Below are positions 31,520 through 39,366 of a stretch of DNA of 64,000 bases, piece after piece (the first letter of the stretch is position 1; each line of letters starts with the position of its first letter). Position numbers and translations under genes: made by a program. The stretch covers positions 3,822,815 through 3,886,814 of the forward strand of contig CP011806.1 of assembly GCA_001664505.1 (NCBI GenBank), written 5' to 3'. Origin of the DNA: Acidobacteria bacterium Mor1. GTDB taxonomy: Bacteria > Acidobacteriota > Polarisedimenticolia > Polarisedimenticolales > Polarisedimenticolaceae. The notes below the pieces were generated by a model that made no database searches, was not told the DNA's origin, and saw only the letters and a list, made by a program, of their open reading frames with translations.

Positions 31520-31872
31520 ACAGGGCGGGCCTCAGCAATCAGCAAGATCGGGGGATGGCGGCAGCCTGTGCCGGCCGGCGTGTGACTTTGCGCGCGGGCG
31601 GGAATCGGTTGTCCCAGGGACCAAAGGGTCCCGAATAAAGGTCTTATTGGGCGCGGGGACTACAGGAATTTAAATCTTCAGGGGGCCACGACGTTGCAGC
31701 ACAAGTCAGTCTTACATGCCGTGAAAAATTGTGGCAGGCGCATTACCCCGCCGTATGTTTTTGGCGTCGAAAACCCCGATCCGTTGACTCGCGGACTCCG
31801 CCATCGCGCAAGTGGGCAACCTGCAGGCGGCTTCCTCGGTCTGATCGAACTTCAATCCATGAGGGATGGCTC
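31520..31872. other. Intergenic region upstream of the giant protein gene
   Basis: A 353-base gap without a supported gene. It holds a small hairpin (GGGACC/GGTCCC, 31617-31632) that could end the response-regulator transcript although it lacks a T-run. It also contains a relatively AT-rich stretch (about 31632-31760) likely to carry the promoter of the giant gene. I tried to match a cyclic-di-GMP riboswitch here and could not. Confidence 0.5.
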
Positions 31873-34800
31873 ATGAAACGCGCGTGTATTGCGTTCCTTG
31901 TCCTTTTCATCCTCTGTTGCACCGCCGCCATGGCTCAGGAGTCGTACACGAACTTCGAAGCCTCGCAGGTGCACCCGATTGCGATGACTCCGTCGCAGGA
32001 TCGGCTGCTGGTCGTCAACACCCCCTCGGCGACCCTCGAAGTCTACTCGATCGACGCCAATGGCGATCTGAGTTTGACCGACAAGATTCCGGTCGGCCTG
32101 GAACCGGTCAGTGTCGCGGCACGATCTGACAACGAGGCGTGGGTGGTCAACCACCTGTCCGACTCGATCAGCATCGTCGACCTGAGCCTGGGTCTGGTCA
32201 CCGATACCCTGCCGACAAGCGACGAGCCCTACGACGTGGTGTTCGCCAACGGTCGCGCGTTCGTCGCGGTCTCTCAGGAAGATCAGGTCGAAGTCTTCGA
32301 CCTGTCCGACCTGAGCGCGGCGCCGACGATCATCGAGATCTTCAGCGTCGATCCCCGCGCGCTGGCGGTCTCCGGCGACGGCAGCCAGGTCTACGTCGTG
32401 GCTGAGAAGTCCGGCAACCAGACCACGGTGATGAACGCCAACGTGATGATCGACAATCCGGAGCCGTTCCGCGCCGAGACCTACCCCAACGTCGGCAAGA
32501 ACCCGCAGCTCTGCGTCAGCGAGCCGGGCGCTTACCCGCCGCTGCCTCCGGGCATGACCCGCAACCCGGCGGCTCCCGACGTCGGCGCGGATCAGACCCC
32601 CTTCGTGGGTCTGATCGTGAAGTGGAACGAACTGACCGGCGCCTGGGAAGACGAGACCGGCAAGAGCTGGAACCACTGCCTGCCCGTCGCTCTTCCCGAC
32701 CAGGACCTTTTCGTCATCGACACCACGACGTTGACCGTGACCCAGACCGTTTCCGGTCTCGGCACCACCCTCTTCGAGGCTTCGGTCAACCCGGCCACCG
32801 GCGAGATCTGGGTGCCCAACACCGAAGCGCGCAACGAAGTGCGCTTCGAGCATCCGATCGGCGTCCAGGGCCATATCGTCGAGAACCAGATGTCGATCGT
32901 CGATGTGTCGACCCCGTCGACCACGATCGTCAACCTGAACACCCATATCGACCGCAACAGCGATCCGGACACCAACCTGGCCGAACGGCAGGCGAGTGTG
33001 TCCCAGCCGGGCATGATGACCTGGGAAGCCGACGGCTCCCACGCATATCTGACGGTCATCGGTTCCCGCAAGATCTTCCGCGTTGACGGCGCCTGCCGTT
33101 CCGGCGGCTGCATCTTCGGTACCGACCGCGCCAACCCGGATGTGATCGAGATCGGTGAAGGCCCGACCGGTGTGGCCCTCAACGAGGCGGACAACCGCCT
33201 GTACGCGTTGCTGCGCTTCAGCAACGAGATCGCCATCGCCGACACCTCGACCCTTTCGGTGCTCTCCACCATCCAGATGGATGACCCGAGCTCCGAGACG
33301 GTCAAGAACGGCCGCCGCATTCTCTACGACGGTATCGACAGCTCGGCCCACGGCGACTCGTCCTGCGCCACCTGTCACGTCTCCGGCGACAACGACGGAC
33401 TCGGCTGGGACCTCAGTAACCCCGAGGGTGCCTGGGTCACCTACAGCGAGCCCCTGGACAACGTCCGCTTCGTGCGCGACGGCCCCAACGGCCCGATCAA
33501 CTGCGATCCGGCCGTCGAGAGCCGCTGCGCCATCCTCGACGGCTTCGAGCCCCACAAGGGCCCGATGACCACCCAGACCTTCCGCGGCATGATCGAGCCG
33601 CTGCACTGGCGTGGTGACCGTCCGACCTTCAGCAGCTTCAACGGCGCGTTCGTCGCGCTGATGGGCCGCAACTCGCAGATCCCGACCGAGACGATGGAGC
33701 TGTTCCGTCAGTTCGCTCTCGGCATCACCTATCCGCCGAACCCGTACCGCAACGTCGACGACTCGGAGCCCGATGCGGTGATGAGCTGGCCCGACCGCGG
33801 CTTCTCGGGTAACCCGGTGGCCGGACGCTTCCTGTTCGAGAACGTGGCCCTGCGTGGTCCGCGTACCTGTCGTGCCTGCCACGCCGCGCCCTTCGGTTCG
33901 GCCGGCGCCCAGCTCGGCGGTGTCGAGCCTGCGGATCCGACCAGCCCCGGCGCCTCGGCGCTGTTCAACGGCAACCGTGCCGACTTCGACACCCCGGCCT
34001 TCGACGTCGAGGTGGGTCACCTGCGGAACATGTACGAGAAGCAGGGTGCGACCTTCGGCGACCACGTGAGCCCGGCTCCGGATTCCAAGTCCGGCTTCGG
34101 CTTCATGCACGACGGCTCGATTCCGGACTTCGGTTCGATGATGTCCCAGGAACACATTGACGGTTGGGACTTCGTCAACGATCCGAACGGCCCCTACGAC
34201 GTGGCCGCCTTCCTGATGCTCTACAACACCGGCACCAAGCCGGGCGTCGGTCAGAACGTGACCGTCCCCGCCGGCGCGGCGCCGACCGGTACCGGCGACG
34301 AAGAAGCCCTGATCAACACCCTGTTGACCATCGGCGATATCTCCGACGCCAACCGCCACTGCGAACTGACCGCCTCGACCTTCAACGACGGCCGGGTGCG
34401 GCGCTACAGCTTCAACGGCGGTTCCTGGCGAACCGATGTCGTCGGTGAGGCCCAGATCAGCACTGCCGACCTGCGCGCCAACGCCGGCGGGCCGATCAGC
34501 TTCCTCTGCGGCACCCTCGGTAGTGGTCCGCGGCTGGGTGGCGATCCCGCCTTCACCCCGGGCGCCTGCGTCATCGACGACAACTGTGTCGATGCCGATC
34601 CTTGCACCGTCGACGTCTGTAACGCCGGTCAGTGCGAGAACAACCCGAGCCCCGACAGCGACAGCGACGGCTTCTGCGACCTGACGGACAACTGCCCGTC
34701 GGACGCCAACGCCGACCAGGCCGATGCCGATGCCGATGGCGCCGGCGATGCCTGCGACACCTGCACCGACGTCGATGGTGACGGATTCGGCAACCCGGGC

Positions 34801-37044
34801 TTCTCGGCCAACACCTGCGCCGACGACAACTGCCCCGCCGACTTCAACCCCGACCAGACCGATAGCGACGGCGACGGCGCCGGCGATGTCTGCGACGACT
34901 GCGCCAACGACAACGACTGTGACGACGGCAACGCCTGCACCACCGATACCTGCACCGGCTCCGGCTGCGTCAACACGCCGCTTCCGGACACCGACAACGA
35001 CGGGTTCTGTGACCTGCTGGACAACTGCCCCTCGGACAGCAACGCCGACCAGGCCAACGCCGATGGCGACAGCACCGGTGACGTGTGCGACACCTGCACC
35101 GACACCGATAACGACGGCTTCGGCAACCCGGGCTTCCCGGCCAACACCTGCCCCGAGGACAACTGCCCGAACACGATGAACGCCGACCAGCTCGATAGCG
35201 ACTTCGACGGTATCGGCGACGTCTGTGACAACGACGACAACGACTTCGACGGCATGGGAGACAACGACGATCCCTGCCCGCTGGATCCGCGCAACCTGTG
35301 CTTCGGTGACGTGGTCACCGACGGCAACACCGGGCTGCCGATCCGCATCAACACCAACACCTCGGGTGCCGAGTGCGCCGGCCAGCGGCTGGACTGCAAC
35401 GGCGACACCTGGTTCGCCGAGTTCGGCAGCAACCAGGGCCGCAACGCAACCTGTGACCTGCCCAACGGCTGCCCGATCAGCAACATCGACGCGCTGCTCG
35501 GCTGCTCCCCCGACGAAGGCACCGAAGACATCTTCCAGTGCGCTCGTTGGGACCGTCCGGCGGCGCCGGAGCTGATCTTCAGCTACGACGTTCCCGACGG
35601 TGAGTACGTGGTCAACCTGTTCTTCTCCGAGAACCGCAACTCGACGGCGTCCATCGGCGCCCGCGTGTTCGACATCTCGATCGAGAACCAGATCGTCTAC
35701 GACGACTTCGACACCTTCGAGACGGCCGGTGCGGCCGGTTCCGCGGTGGTCCGCTCGGCGCGGGTCAACGTGACCGACGGCAACGGTATCCAGATCGAGC
35801 TGATCCACCAGGTCGAGAACCCCTCGATCATGGCGCTCGAGATCATCGCTCCGTCCTGTGAGTTCAACAGCGACTGCGATGACGGCAACCCCTGCACCGA
35901 CGACACCTGTAACGCCGGTGCCTGCATCAACAGCAACAACACCGACACCTGCGACGACGGTGTGGCCTGTACCTCCGGCGACGTCTGCGGCGGCGGCACC
36001 TGCTCCGGTACCGACAACTGCGGCATCAACGAAGAGTGCAACCTCAACACCGGCGTCTGCGACTTCAACGGATGCGTGACCGACGCAGAGTGCGCCGACA
36101 GCGATCCGTGCACTGACGACGTCTGTAACGGCGTGGGCACCTGCGAGAACAACCCGCTGCCCGACGGCGATTCCGATGGCCTCTGCGACGCGACGGACAA
36201 CTGCCCGTCCGACAGCAACCCGGGTCAGGAAGATGCCGACGCCGACTCCACCGGCGACGTCTGCGACACCTGCACCGACACCGACGGCGACGGCTTCGGC
36301 GACCCTGGCTTCCCGGCCAACGTCTGCGCCGAGGACAACTGCCCGAACGTCTCCAACGCCGACCAGACCGACACCGATGGTGACGGTGTGGGCGATGCCT
36401 GCGAAACCGGACCCGCCAACGACGGCGACTTCGACGGCATCCTCGACGGCAGCGATCCCTGCCCGACCGATCCGCGCAACCTGTGCTTCGGTCCGGTCGC
36501 GATCGACAACACCACGACCGATCCGGTTCGTATGAACCTCAACACCTCGGGTAACTCCTGCGCCGGCGACAAGATCGACTGCAACGGAGACCTGTGGGTT
36601 CGTGAGTTCGGCAGCAACCAGGGCCGCAACGCGGTCTGCAACCTGCCGGGCGGCTGCCCGATCTCGGGCATCGACACGATCCTCGGCTGCACCGATGACG
36701 CCACCGAAGACCTGTTCCAGTGCTCGCGCTGGGATCGCCCGGCCGCGCCGGAGCTGATCTACAGCTACGACATCCCGAACGGTTCCTACGTGGTCAACAT
36801 CTACCTGGCCGAGACCTTCACCGGAACGTCCAACCCCGGTGACCGCGTCTTCGACATCGAGATCGAAGGCAACCTGGTTCACGACGACGTCGACGCCGTG
36901 GCGCTGACCGGTGGTTCCGGTATCGCCCTGGTCCGCTCGGCGGTGGTGACCGTTAGCGACGGTAACGGCATGACCATCGAGTTCCTGCACACCGGTGCGA
37001 ACAACCCGGCCGTCAAGGCCATCGAGGTCCTGTCGTCTAACTAG
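31873..37044 (+). CDS. Giant secreted multidomain protein: propeller, two c-haem sites, TSP3 and malectin modules
   Basis: A 1723-residue protein with a signal peptide (ACIAFLVLFILCCTAAMAQ). Residues ~25-480 are a YVTN-like beta-propeller. Residues ~480-790 form a di-haem cytochrome region with CATCH (Cys498) and CRACH (Cys666), resembling cytochrome-c-peroxidase/MauG-type proteins. From ~880 there are Cys-rich DxCDDGNxCTxDxC repeats and calcium-binding thrombospondin type 3 repeats (DxDxDGxxDxxDNCP). Two malectin-like carbohydrate-binding modules follow (starting DTWFAEFGSNQ and DLWVREFGSNQ). There is no sortase or autotransporter signal. It is probably a cell-surface redox/adhesion protein. 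A small cytochrome c is encoded next and may be its electron partner. Confidence 0.88.
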   Translation: MKRACIAFLVLFILCCTAAMAQESYTNFEASQVHPIAMTPSQDRLLVVNTPSATLEVYSIDANGDLSLTDKIPVGLEPVSVAARSDNEAWVVNHLSDSISIVDLSLGLVTDTLPTSDEPYDVVFANGRAFVAVSQEDQVEVFDLSDLSAAPTIIEIFSVDPRALAVSGDGSQVYVVAEKSGNQTTVMNANVMIDNPEPFRAETYPNVGKNPQLCVSEPGAYPPLPPGMTRNPAAPDVGADQTPFVGLIVKWNELTGAWEDETGKSWNHCLPVALPDQDLFVIDTTTLTVTQTVSGLGTTLFEASVNPATGEIWVPNTEARNEVRFEHPIGVQGHIVENQMSIVDVSTPSTTIVNLNTHIDRNSDPDTNLAERQASVSQPGMMTWEADGSHAYLTVIGSRKIFRVDGACRSGGCIFGTDRANPDVIEIGEGPTGVALNEADNRLYALLRFSNEIAIADTSTLSVLSTIQMDDPSSETVKNGRRILYDGIDSSAHGDSSCATCHVSGDNDGLGWDLSNPEGAWVTYSEPLDNVRFVRDGPNGPINCDPAVESRCAILDGFEPHKGPMTTQTFRGMIEPLHWRGDRPTFSSFNGAFVALMGRNSQIPTETMELFRQFALGITYPPNPYRNVDDSEPDAVMSWPDRGFSGNPVAGRFLFENVALRGPRTCRACHAAPFGSAGAQLGGVEPADPTSPGASALFNGNRADFDTPAFDVEVGHLRNMYEKQGATFGDHVSPAPDSKSGFGFMHDGSIPDFGSMMSQEHIDGWDFVNDPNGPYDVAAFLMLYNTGTKPGVGQNVTVPAGAAPTGTGDEEALINTLLTIGDISDANRHCELTASTFNDGRVRRYSFNGGSWRTDVVGEAQISTADLRANAGGPISFLCGTLGSGPRLGGDPAFTPGACVIDDNCVDADPCTVDVCNAGQCENNPSPDSDSDGFCDLTDNCPSDANADQADADADGAGDACDTCTDVDGDGFGNPGFSANTCADDNCPADFNPDQTDSDGDGAGDVCDDCANDNDCDDGNACTTDTCTGSGCVNTPLPDTDNDGFCDLLDNCPSDSNADQANADGDSTGDVCDTCTDTDNDGFGNPGFPANTCPEDNCPNTMNADQLDSDFDGIGDVCDNDDNDFDGMGDNDDPCPLDPRNLCFGDVVTDGNTGLPIRINTNTSGAECAGQRLDCNGDTWFAEFGSNQGRNATCDLPNGCPISNIDALLGCSPDEGTEDIFQCARWDRPAAPELIFSYDVPDGEYVVNLFFSENRNSTASIGARVFDISIENQIVYDDFDTFETAGAAGSAVVRSARVNVTDGNGIQIELIHQVENPSIMALEIIAPSCEFNSDCDDGNPCTDDTCNAGACINSNNTDTCDDGVACTSGDVCGGGTCSGTDNCGINEECNLNTGVCDFNGCVTDAECADSDPCTDDVCNGVGTCENNPLPDGDSDGLCDATDNCPSDSNPGQEDADADSTGDVCDTCTDTDGDGFGDPGFPANVCAEDNCPNVSNADQTDTDGDGVGDACETGPANDGDFDGILDGSDPCPTDPRNLCFGPVAIDNTTTDPVRMNLNTSGNSCAGDKIDCNGDLWVREFGSNQGRNAVCNLPGGCPISGIDTILGCTDDATEDLFQCSRWDRPAAPELIYSYDIPNGSYVVNIYLAETFTGTSNPGDRVFDIEIEGNLVHDDVDAVALTGGSGIALVRSAVVTVSDGNGMTIEFLHTGANNPAVKAIEVLSSN

Positions 37045-37072
37045 GACCCCGATCGACTCTGGTCCGCTAAAG

Positions 37073-37107
37073 GGGCGGGTGGCTTTGGTCACCCGCCCTT
37101 TTTCTTT
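37073..37107 (+). terminator. Rho-independent terminator of the giant gene
   Basis: A 9-bp stem GGGCGGGTG/CACCCGCCC is followed by TTTTTCTTT, 28 bp past the stop codon. Confidence 0.92.
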
Positions 37108-37118
37108 GTTGGGGGAGC

Positions 37119-37262
37119 GGGTTGGGTGGGGGTTGGCCTAGCGGCTTCGATGTGCGGCGTTCGAGGGGCTGCGGTGTGTGAGGGGGTTCTCTTTGGGACC
37201 TCCTGCATACGTATGCCGGTCGGCCGCACAAAGGCGCCGTACGGCCAACCCCCACCCAACCC
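37119..37262 (+). repeat. 144-bp palindromic element, copy 1
   Basis: The ends are a perfect 20-bp inverted repeat (GGGTTGGGTGGGGGTTGGCC and its complement). An internal pair GTGCGGC/GCCGCAC and the palindrome GCATACGTATGC lie between. Copy 2 (37950-38093) is the same length and differs at about nine positions by eye. It lies between the terminator of the giant gene and the cytochrome c gene. Confidence 0.92.
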
Positions 37263-37479
37263 TTTAGCCTCAACAAGGCCGGGCGCGGGTCGCAGGGCCT
37301 CCCGCGCGCTTTGGTTTGGCTCGAGGTGGCGATCGGGGTCCTGGTTTTGTCTCTAGTGGGTGGGGGCTGTGGACTAAGGGGATCCCTATTGGTCGGTTGT
37401 GGTCGGGCGAGTCGCGCTGGTTGACGTCTAAGCTCTCTGATGGAGACGTCTCCCTCAGGGGTGTTTCCAGGAGGTGACC

Positions 37480-37938
37480 ATGCGTAGGTTTTTGACGATC
37501 GTGACCATCCTGCTCTCTGCGGCGGTTGTCGGTTCATGGATCGGCCTCTGGGCCGAGAACGAGGCGGCGCCCGAGGTCGAGCCTACGGCGGAGCAGATCA
37601 AGCACCTGGTCGGTTTGCCCGACACCATTCCCGCTCACGCCAAGGATCTGGAGAACCCCCAGGCTCCGACCGAGAAGTCGTTGGAGCTCGGCGGGCTGCT
37701 GTTCTCCAGTCAGTGTGTGATGTGCCACGGCAGCGGCGGCGCAGGGGACGGTGATCTGATCGACCGCTTCGAGATGAAGATCCCCGATCTGACCGATCCC
37801 AAGTTCCACAAGGAGTGGACCGACGGCCAGCTCTACTACGTGCTGTCCCACGGCCACGGGCGCATGCCGAGTCAGAATCGGTTCAAGGAGCAGGCGCGCT
37901 GGGACATGGTGAACTTCGTTCGCTCGCTCAGTCGGTGA
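37480..37938 (+). CDS. Small exported mono-haem cytochrome c
   Basis: A 152-residue protein with an N-terminal signal or anchor helix (FLTIVTILLSAAVVGSWIGLW) and one haem motif, CVMCH, followed by GSGGAGDG. A likely axial Met lies in HGRMPSQ. It resembles class I cytochrome c electron carriers of the cbb3-subunit/cytochrome c6 type. The ATG at 37480 follows CAGGAGGTGACC. It sits between two copies of the 144-bp palindromic element, downstream of the giant haem protein, so a shared redox role is plausible but unproven. Confidence 0.92.
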   Translation: MRRFLTIVTILLSAAVVGSWIGLWAENEAAPEVEPTAEQIKHLVGLPDTIPAHAKDLENPQAPTEKSLELGGLLFSSQCVMCHGSGGAGDGDLIDRFEMKIPDLTDPKFHKEWTDGQLYYVLSHGHGRMPSQNRFKEQARWDMVNFVRSLSR

Positions 37939-37949
37939 GTTGTTGCCGC

Positions 37950-38093
37950 GGGTTGGGTGGGGGTTGGCCTAGCGGCTTCGATGTGCGGCGTTCGGGGGGC
38001 TGCGGTGTGTGAGGGGGTTCTCTCTGGGAAGCCCTGCATACGTTTGCTTGTCGGCCGCACATAGGCGCCGTACGGCCAACCCCCACCCAACCC
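37950..38093 (+). repeat. 144-bp palindromic element, copy 2
   Basis: It has the same orientation, length and 20-bp terminal inverted repeat as copy 1. It begins 11 bp after the cytochrome c stop. Differences from copy 1 cluster in the centre. Confidence 0.92.
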
Positions 38094-38241
38094 TTTTGCC
38101 ACGACATCAGCAACACGCTCGCTGCCGGTTATCTCACCCACTTAGACCGAGCCAGCAATCACCGACCAAACTTCGATGGGAAGCTAATGATTGCAACCAG
38201 GTCCACCACGAGCGAAGCGACGTGGTTGCGGTGCGGCTGAA

Positions 38242-38385
38242 GGTGGGGGCGGGGGCTCGCCGTACGGCGCCTTTGTGCGGCCGCCCCGCAAACGTATGCA
38301 GGATCTCCCAGCGAGAACCCACTCACAAGTCGCAGCGCAGAGAACGCCGCACATCGAAGCCGGTAGGCGAGCCCCCGCCCCCACC
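38242..38385 (-). repeat. 144-bp palindromic element, copy 3 (inverted, divergent arms)
   Basis: Read on the minus strand this matches the interior of copies 1 and 2 (CTTCGATGTGCGGCGTTC, CCTGCATACGT, GGCCGCACAAAGGCGCCGTA). Its terminal arms are GGTGGGGGCGGGGGCTCGCC and the perfect complement. Six positions in each arm differ from copies 1 and 2, and every change is compensated in the opposite arm. The bases between copies 2 and 3 (38094-38241) show no gene. Confidence 0.9.
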
Positions 38386-38400
38386 GCTGCCCCAACGCAC

Positions 38401-39366
38401 CTACTCCGAGAGCGACCCGGACAGCGGCAACGCCATGCGCCACGCCTTGCCTTCACCGATCGTCATCTCGACGAACGGATCGAAGGGTTCGGCCAGCAGA
38501 TCGCGGCGGAGTTCGGCGCAGAGCACCTGGTCGGGTCGCGCGGCCGCATGGCGGTACCCCGCCGAGCGTGGGCTCAGTCGGTAGGTTCCGTTCTGTCCCG
38601 CAGCGACGCCGATGCGCCGGTAGCTCTCGACCACCGCGTCGGCCCAGTCCGCAGGGGCCAGCAGGTTGCCATCCGGGTCCTCGGTGATCAGGTCGACCTC
38701 GGGGCGCACCGGCCAACCGGCGTAGGTCTCGGGTTCGTAGGCCTTGCGCAGCGCCTTGACGATGCCGGCGTCGACGTCGGTGATGTTGACCGAGCGGGGG
38801 GCGTAGCTGTGGAGGCAGAGCGCCTTTCCGCCCGGGTCACAGACGGCTGCGTAGGCCCGGTCGGCGACCTCCTGGTAGCCGGCGTGGAGGCGGGTAAGTA
38901 GATCGCGGTCCCGCGGGTCCTCGATGTAGCCGGGAAAGGGGGGCGTCAGCTTGACCCCGTCGTCGTCGCCGCCTTCCAGAACACGGTTGAGATCGACGAA
39001 GGTGCGGGGGACCCGGCCCAGCAGGACCAGGGTGCGCCGGGGCCGATCGGTGGCGGCGCGCTGCACCTGGTCGAGGAGCGCATGGGTCTCGCCGTTCGCC
39101 TCGGAGAGAGCCGGTGGGTTCTCGAAATCACCGGCGAGCTGCCGGCCGACCGCTCGGGCGCACTCGGGGGTGCCGATGTCGGTGTTGACGAAGAAGAACG
39201 CCTGGAGATCTTCGGGGAGCGCGCTGTGTAGTTGCGCCTCCAGCGTGGTGTAGTCGGTGGCCCGGGTTGCCCCGTGGGGGACCTCGATCAGCAGATCCAC
39301 CGGGCCCTGCTCCGGCCCGTACCACTCGACGTCACAGATTCCCTCGATCGACCGGATGTCCTGCAT
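38401..39366 (-). CDS. N-formylglutamate amidohydrolase-like protein
   Basis: A 321-residue protein with the layout of the N-formylglutamate amidohydrolase family. It has EVPHGAT near the N-terminus, VNTDIGTPECARAVGRQL, the RTFVDLNRV motif and later CLHSYAPRSV. The family consists of zinc hydrolases of histidine degradation and relatives acting on other N-acyl amino acids. Homology is judged from these motifs only, so the substrate is left open. It is last in a minus-strand series after the ParA-like, membrane protein and lipase genes. Confidence 0.72.
   Translation of the reverse strand: MQDIRSIEGICDVEWYGPEQGPVDLLIEVPHGATRATDYTTLEAQLHSALPEDLQAFFFVNTDIGTPECARAVGRQLAGDFENPPALSEANGETHALLDQVQRAATDRPRRTLVLLGRVPRTFVDLNRVLEGGDDDGVKLTPPFPGYIEDPRDRDLLTRLHAGYQEVADRAYAAVCDPGGKALCLHSYAPRSVNITDVDAGIVKALRKAYEPETYAGWPVRPEVDLITEDPDGNLLAPADWADAVVESYRRIGVAAGQNGTYRLSPRSAGYRHAAARPDQVLCAELRRDLLAEPFDPFVEMTIGEGKAWRMALPLSGSLSE

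Follow-up and report, generated by a model that had tools for sequence, protein, structure and literature searches.

What are the palindromic elements that lie on either side of a cytochrome c gene in the genome of Acidobacteria bacterium Mor1, and does their folded form matter? The window analysed here is a stretch of 64,000 nucleotides (positions 3822815-3886814 of one 5.985-Mb contig). A sequence-only reading of this window had described three palindromic elements of exactly 144 bp, the third inverted, with perfectly pairing 20-bp terminal arms whose differences are matched on the opposite side. The positions and exact lengths of the three elements (c1, c2 and c3) were confirmed (Table 1), and perfect arms are present in each. 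The arm of c3 differs from that of c1 and c2 at six positions (3, 4, 5, 9, 15 and 17), all of which are compensated opposite. The inner pair GTGCGGC/GCCGCAC and the block CTTCGATGTGCGGCGTTC are common to the three copies, and the gene bracketed by c1 and c2 is indeed a cytochrome c gene (Pfam Cytochrome_CBB3). The 144-bp measure holds for this part of the element, but the complete fold is longer, reaching 167-175 bp in the window copies with an additional outer helix. The fold consists, in order, of the outer helix, a small loop, the 20-bp helix, loop A, a 4-bp helix (helix 2), loop B, a 5-8-bp helix (helix 3) and a variable top. The MFE of c1-c3 ranges from -104 to -107 kcal/mol (z = -9.5 to -10.5), a value as low being found in 0 of 200 dinucleotide shuffles. 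In 2.14 Mb of the genome, each of the six longest perfect inverted repeats whose spacer measures 20-260 nt belongs to this hairpin family. Three long perfect hairpins with arms of 15-17 bp that do not belong to the family were also seen in the genome sample (L217 2938-3001, L180 4410-4473 and L208 6569-6683).

Table 1 Hairpin copies and neighbouring features. Positions are those of the window for c1-c3 and their surroundings, and those of the genome for c4-c9.
Feature	Position	Strand	Remarks
c1 full fold	37104..37278	+	outer helix 37104-37114 / 37268-37278 plus 144-bp part
c1 144-bp part	37119..37262	+	perfect 20-bp arms
Loop A of c1	5' side 37139..37141 (UAG), 3' side 37240-37242 (UAC)	+	conservation 83/92%
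Loop B of c1	5' side 37146..37150 (UUCGA), 3' side 37231-37235 (AAGGC)	+	conservation 86/95%
c2 full fold	37939..38105	+	starts right after cytochrome c stop codon (37938)
c2 144-bp part	37950..38093	+	94% identity to c1
c3 full fold	38227..38399	-	1 bp from stop codon of minus-strand gene 38401-39366
c3 144-bp part	38242..38385	-	six compensated arm differences vs c1/c2
Intrinsic terminator of gene ending 37044	37069..37102	+	ordinary, just upstream of c1; terminator scan
Cytochrome c gene between c1 and c2	37474..37938	+	Pfam PF13442
Gene upstream of c3 in c3 orientation	38401..39366	-	321-aa protein, no Pfam match
c4	4824096		covariance model
c5	5050887		covariance model
c6, c7	2553999 and 2554385		inverted pair; covariance model
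c8	1225181		covariance model
c9	3983718		covariance model

The three copies in the window are all real but do not make up the whole family. Covariance models built stepwise from five, eight and then nine copies, with scores given to the best candidates only in the genome-wide search, revealed nine members in the 5.985-Mb genome, spread over six loci and with c3 and c7 inverted. When the last model was run over 2 Mb of the genome, c9 was the only copy returned, so that nine is close to the full count. Among the genomes compared, the genus is represented by this genome alone. No family member was detected in 59 relatives (covariance model), in 198 further genomes of the phylum (model search), in 395 genomes of the phylum (pattern search) or in the plasmids and phages searched. 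The only pattern match in another genome (G052) was a chance match, a weak match in the relative G026 (L167) was not a copy, and two viral matches were not family members; a two-part pattern gave chance matches only among the matches listed for public genomes. The sequence-only reading had proposed this search of the full genome and its relatives, and had named as grounds for refutation that the three copies stand alone or that no relatives show the paired changes; the claim was not refuted on these grounds. Paired changes run across nine diverged copies, all of which lie in the same genome, and nothing related to the element turned up in the other genomes searched.

Covariation was evaluated in the nine-copy alignment. 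Standard pairs account for 95.8% of 288 cells, against 73% in shuffles, and double-sided changes occur in 20 of the 32 pairs, although the copies are related and the counts are therefore not independent. The covariation score was 0.58 against 0.14 in shuffles, none of 500 shuffles reached the observed level, and a control in which the partner was displaced by 1-3 columns gave only 40-48% pairing. Paired changes thus recur in diverged copies far beyond the level of shuffled sequences. They also extend beyond the arms into the short helices: a C-G pair is swapped to G-C in helix 2, GTGC/GCAC is replaced by GAAC/GTTC in helix 3 of c9, and the first position of helix 3 shows three pair types. The outer helix beyond the 144 bp has a copy-specific sequence (CTTTGTTGGGG/CCTCAACAAGG in c1 and CCTGTCCTTAG/CTAAGGGCAGG in c9); its pairing is significant when summed over copies (p < 0.001) but not in every copy, being weak in c2 alone (p 0.28).

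Do these paired changes reveal selection on the fold? Within the 20-bp arms, 174 of the 180 cells are Watson-Crick pairs, the rest being five mismatches (three A-C and two of other kinds) and a single U-G, and the pairs are strongly biased (G-C 104 vs C-G 39; T-A 28 vs A-T 3). A helix kept by RNA selection alone is expected to hold more wobble pairs. When template switching occurs at DNA replication, one arm of a palindrome serves to correct the other, with G-C and U-A being favoured (PMC8794818). Given the near-pure Watson-Crick arms and this bias, the covariation of the arms alone is no proof of selection and can be partly mutational in origin. The earlier claim that covariation is strong evidence for a fold that matters is supported in part, by its recurrence across nine copies, and weakened where it rested on the arms. 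Spacer inversion, sought as a trace of template switching, gave no convincing inverted match.

Better evidence for a selected fold comes from the unpaired loops conserved in all nine copies, the covarying helices 2 and 3, and the consistent placement relative to genes. With the near-duplicate c2 left out, the 20-bp arms have a mean pairwise identity of 60-62%, helix 3 of 64-67%, the top of 55% and helix 2 of 86%; the values for loop A are 83-92% and those for loop B 86-95%. The unpaired internal loops UAC/UAC and UUCGA/AAGGC are the most conserved parts of the element and are present in every copy, the 5' side of loop A reading UAG in c1 and UAC in most copies. On direct reading, the U-C mismatch and the G-A mismatch of loop B are kept in all nine. 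These loops bear on the alternative that the copies are old repeats without present function, the paired arm changes having arisen when replication template switching copied arm onto arm. Such a process would account for the composition of the arms, including a pair bias that matches intrastrand template switching (PMC8794818). It should, however, have erased the internal loops too, and both persist as the most conserved sequence of the family; it also leaves the gene-sense placement unexplained. We consider this alternative improbable.

Eight of the nine copies follow a gene on its 3' side, in the orientation of that gene (sign test ~0.004 if the copies are independent), and three begin at or within 1 bp of a stop codon. 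A malectin/thrombospondin-repeat protein gene, followed by its terminator, precedes c1; c4 follows a TonB-dependent receptor gene, c5 an S9 peptidase gene and c6 a gene without a Pfam match. The copies c2 and c3 are located between convergent genes, c8 lies about 260 bp past an S49 peptidase gene on the same strand and beyond a terminator, and the stop codon of the gene at c9 falls inside the outer helix of that copy. The exception is c7, the inverted partner of c6, which is not 3' of a gene. As c1, c4 and c8 lie beyond the terminator or a terminator-like hairpin of the gene, they may not be part of the upstream mRNA. The malectin / thrombospondin type 3 repeat protein upstream of c1 (31729-37044) is large, and a 1746-codon open frame opposite its gene (31852-37092) is probably a by-product of high G+C.

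Could the hairpins be transcription terminators of an unusual kind that lack a long U-tract? They are very stable and lie 3' of genes, some copies have up to four T's behind the stem, and the position of c2 and c3 between convergent genes would suit this role. Yet the terminator scan detected no stem with a U-tract at the elements and found only the separate terminator that already precedes c1. No T-tract follows c4, c5 or c9, and a terminator does not need conserved internal loops. A terminator function is thus very unlikely.

Our preferred reading, which we put forward tentatively, is that the elements form a new low-copy family of about 170-bp hairpins at gene 3' ends, nine in number, that are selected when folded, most probably in RNA form at the end of the upstream gene's transcript. 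In all eight copies compared, folding is better for the sense strand than for the antisense strand. When the cores are compared by z-score, sense is the better strand in eight of nine copies, although the margin is slight in several cases and c9 shows the opposite. This sense-strand folding and the placement at stop codons favour action as RNA at transcript ends. The arm mismatches in sense, three A-C against one U-G, favour RNA pairing no more than DNA pairing. According to this 3'-end RNA reading, the helices would tolerate any sequence as long as pairing is kept and would serve as a scaffold, and the fixed internal loops would be the recognition site for a protein or a ribonuclease. The hairpin would then probably act on the mRNA 3' end by defining, processing or protecting it. 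Template-switch correction and selection probably act jointly to keep the arms perfect, and the copies may have been spread in the past by an enzyme. A bolder version, which we hold to be unlikely, would make the hairpin a structure-only element: half of the stem, the outer one, would have no fixed sequence and be rewritten in each copy, and recognition would depend on the two loops alone. The loops would be read at the 3' ends of mRNAs by an RNA-binding protein or a ribonuclease, or else by an undescribed enzyme mobilising the folded strand.

The c6-c7 block (L155 9484-10061) and the c1-c3 block (window 37104-38415) are homologous, and the homology extends into the flanks, so a larger block was duplicated at least once. 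The cytochrome c gene and c2 are present only in the window block, between c1 and c3, as if they had been inserted there or lost elsewhere. An empty site was sought through the gene next to c6, orthologues of which were found only in another family and are too distant. A second short hairpin, CCACGTCGCTTCGCTCGTGG, occurs in nearly identical form just downstream of c3 (window 38206-38225) and c7 (L155 9850-9869). As a candidate for a separate genome-wide repeat it was rejected, close matches being limited to c3 and c7 and 11 loose matches in 2.1 Mb being attributable to chance. The downstream flanks of the nine copies do not align with one another. No excess of direct repeats indicative of target-site duplication was detected in the flanks of the copies; 8-bp words shared by the flanks of c2 and c7 looked promising against mononucleotide shuffles, but the signal disappeared against dinucleotide shuffles and random genomic pairs.

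The dispersal of the copies over several unrelated loci, the 94% identity of c1 and c2 and the presence of the cytochrome c gene with c2 in only one of two homologous blocks would fit a non-autonomous mobile element whose folded single DNA strand or cruciform is the form recognised, as RAYT recognises REP and IntI recognises attC. In that case the fold would serve transposition and not RNA. The near-pure Watson-Crick arms and the interrupted stem with strand-polar loops are consistent with such recognition. The sequence-only reading had suggested a search for a RAYT-type transposase, and none emerged: PF01797 (Y1, RAYT) had no match in the genome (G000), with positive controls, and the RAYT/REP reading was rejected on this absence. 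An integron reading was likewise rejected, four recombinases scored with TIGR02249 (XerD, a XerC-like protein, a fragment and a phage-type) being far below the cut-off. The same genome encodes one truncated and one divergent phage-type tyrosine recombinase (L163 1354-1986 and L164 958-1977). The absence of a Y1 transposase, of an integron integrase over the cut-off and of significant flanking direct repeats, as well as the strong gene-sense orientation and a count of only nine copies, speak against this mobile-element reading, which we regard as possible but somewhat unlikely. The special case of attC-type sites in an integron-like system, with the cytochrome c gene and c2 as a cassette, is largely refuted here and extremely improbable. 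The hairpin does resemble attC in following directly on a gene stop, in its interrupted stem of variable sequence with conserved unpaired features, and in a length near the attC range of 57-142 nt (PMC2727003). However, the genome lacks an integrase over the cut-off, the copies are dispersed over six loci with c3 and c7 inverted instead of forming a head-to-tail cassette array, and the conserved sequence is internal, not in the boundary R boxes.

The nine hairpins provide a compact natural test, within one genome, of selection against template-switch repair as the source of perfect pairing, and point to something that reads the loops at the ends of genes in a lineage that has been little studied. 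To which known repeats are they closest? The sequence-only reading did not recognise a REP or MITE family, and the comparison agrees. No Rfam family exceeded the gathering threshold, and a permissive Rfam search returned far-sub-threshold matches only, mostly generic miRNA hairpins. REP and BIME elements are also palindromic and extragenic, with an interrupted stem and some copies in inverted pairs. However, REPs are units of 20-40 bp, GTAG-tagged, of high copy number and often accompanied by a Y1 transposase (PMC3733652), none of which applies to the present family; its 144-bp part has variable ends with neither a GTAG nor a CGTC tag. The sequence-conserved terminal inverted repeats and target-site duplications of MITEs of the ERIC, NEMIS and RUP type are lacking as well, the arms being only about 60% identical though paired. 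With nine dispersed, mainly intergenic copies sharing a common fold, the family is filed broadly under structured intergenic repeats, as a member of no named family, and on the best reading by analogy it would be functionally closest to ERIC, YPAL and NEMIS repeats. YPAL (RU-2) of Yersinia, about 168 bp long, is similar in length, internal palindrome, intergenic location, hairpin RNA and a proposed effect on upstream transcripts (PMC2229807). This likeness is by description only, and YPAL has target duplications of 3-26 bp, whereas the present hairpins have no significant ones and their outer stems are sequence-free. ERIC (IRU, 127 bp) is likewise a structured intergenic repeat, is co-transcribed with flanking genes and affects mRNA stability (PMC2229807), but has short conserved 7-bp terminal repeats, while the ends of the present copies are fully different. 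NEMIS (Correia) elements share the long terminal stem and small size, and their RNA has been proposed as an RNase III substrate (PMC2229807); they differ in having sequence-conserved 24-bp terminal repeats and a TA target, the arms here not being conserved. Small structured repeats are widespread, and most known families of them keep conserved ends, whereas in the present family the ends are sequence-free and only the pairing and two loops are kept.
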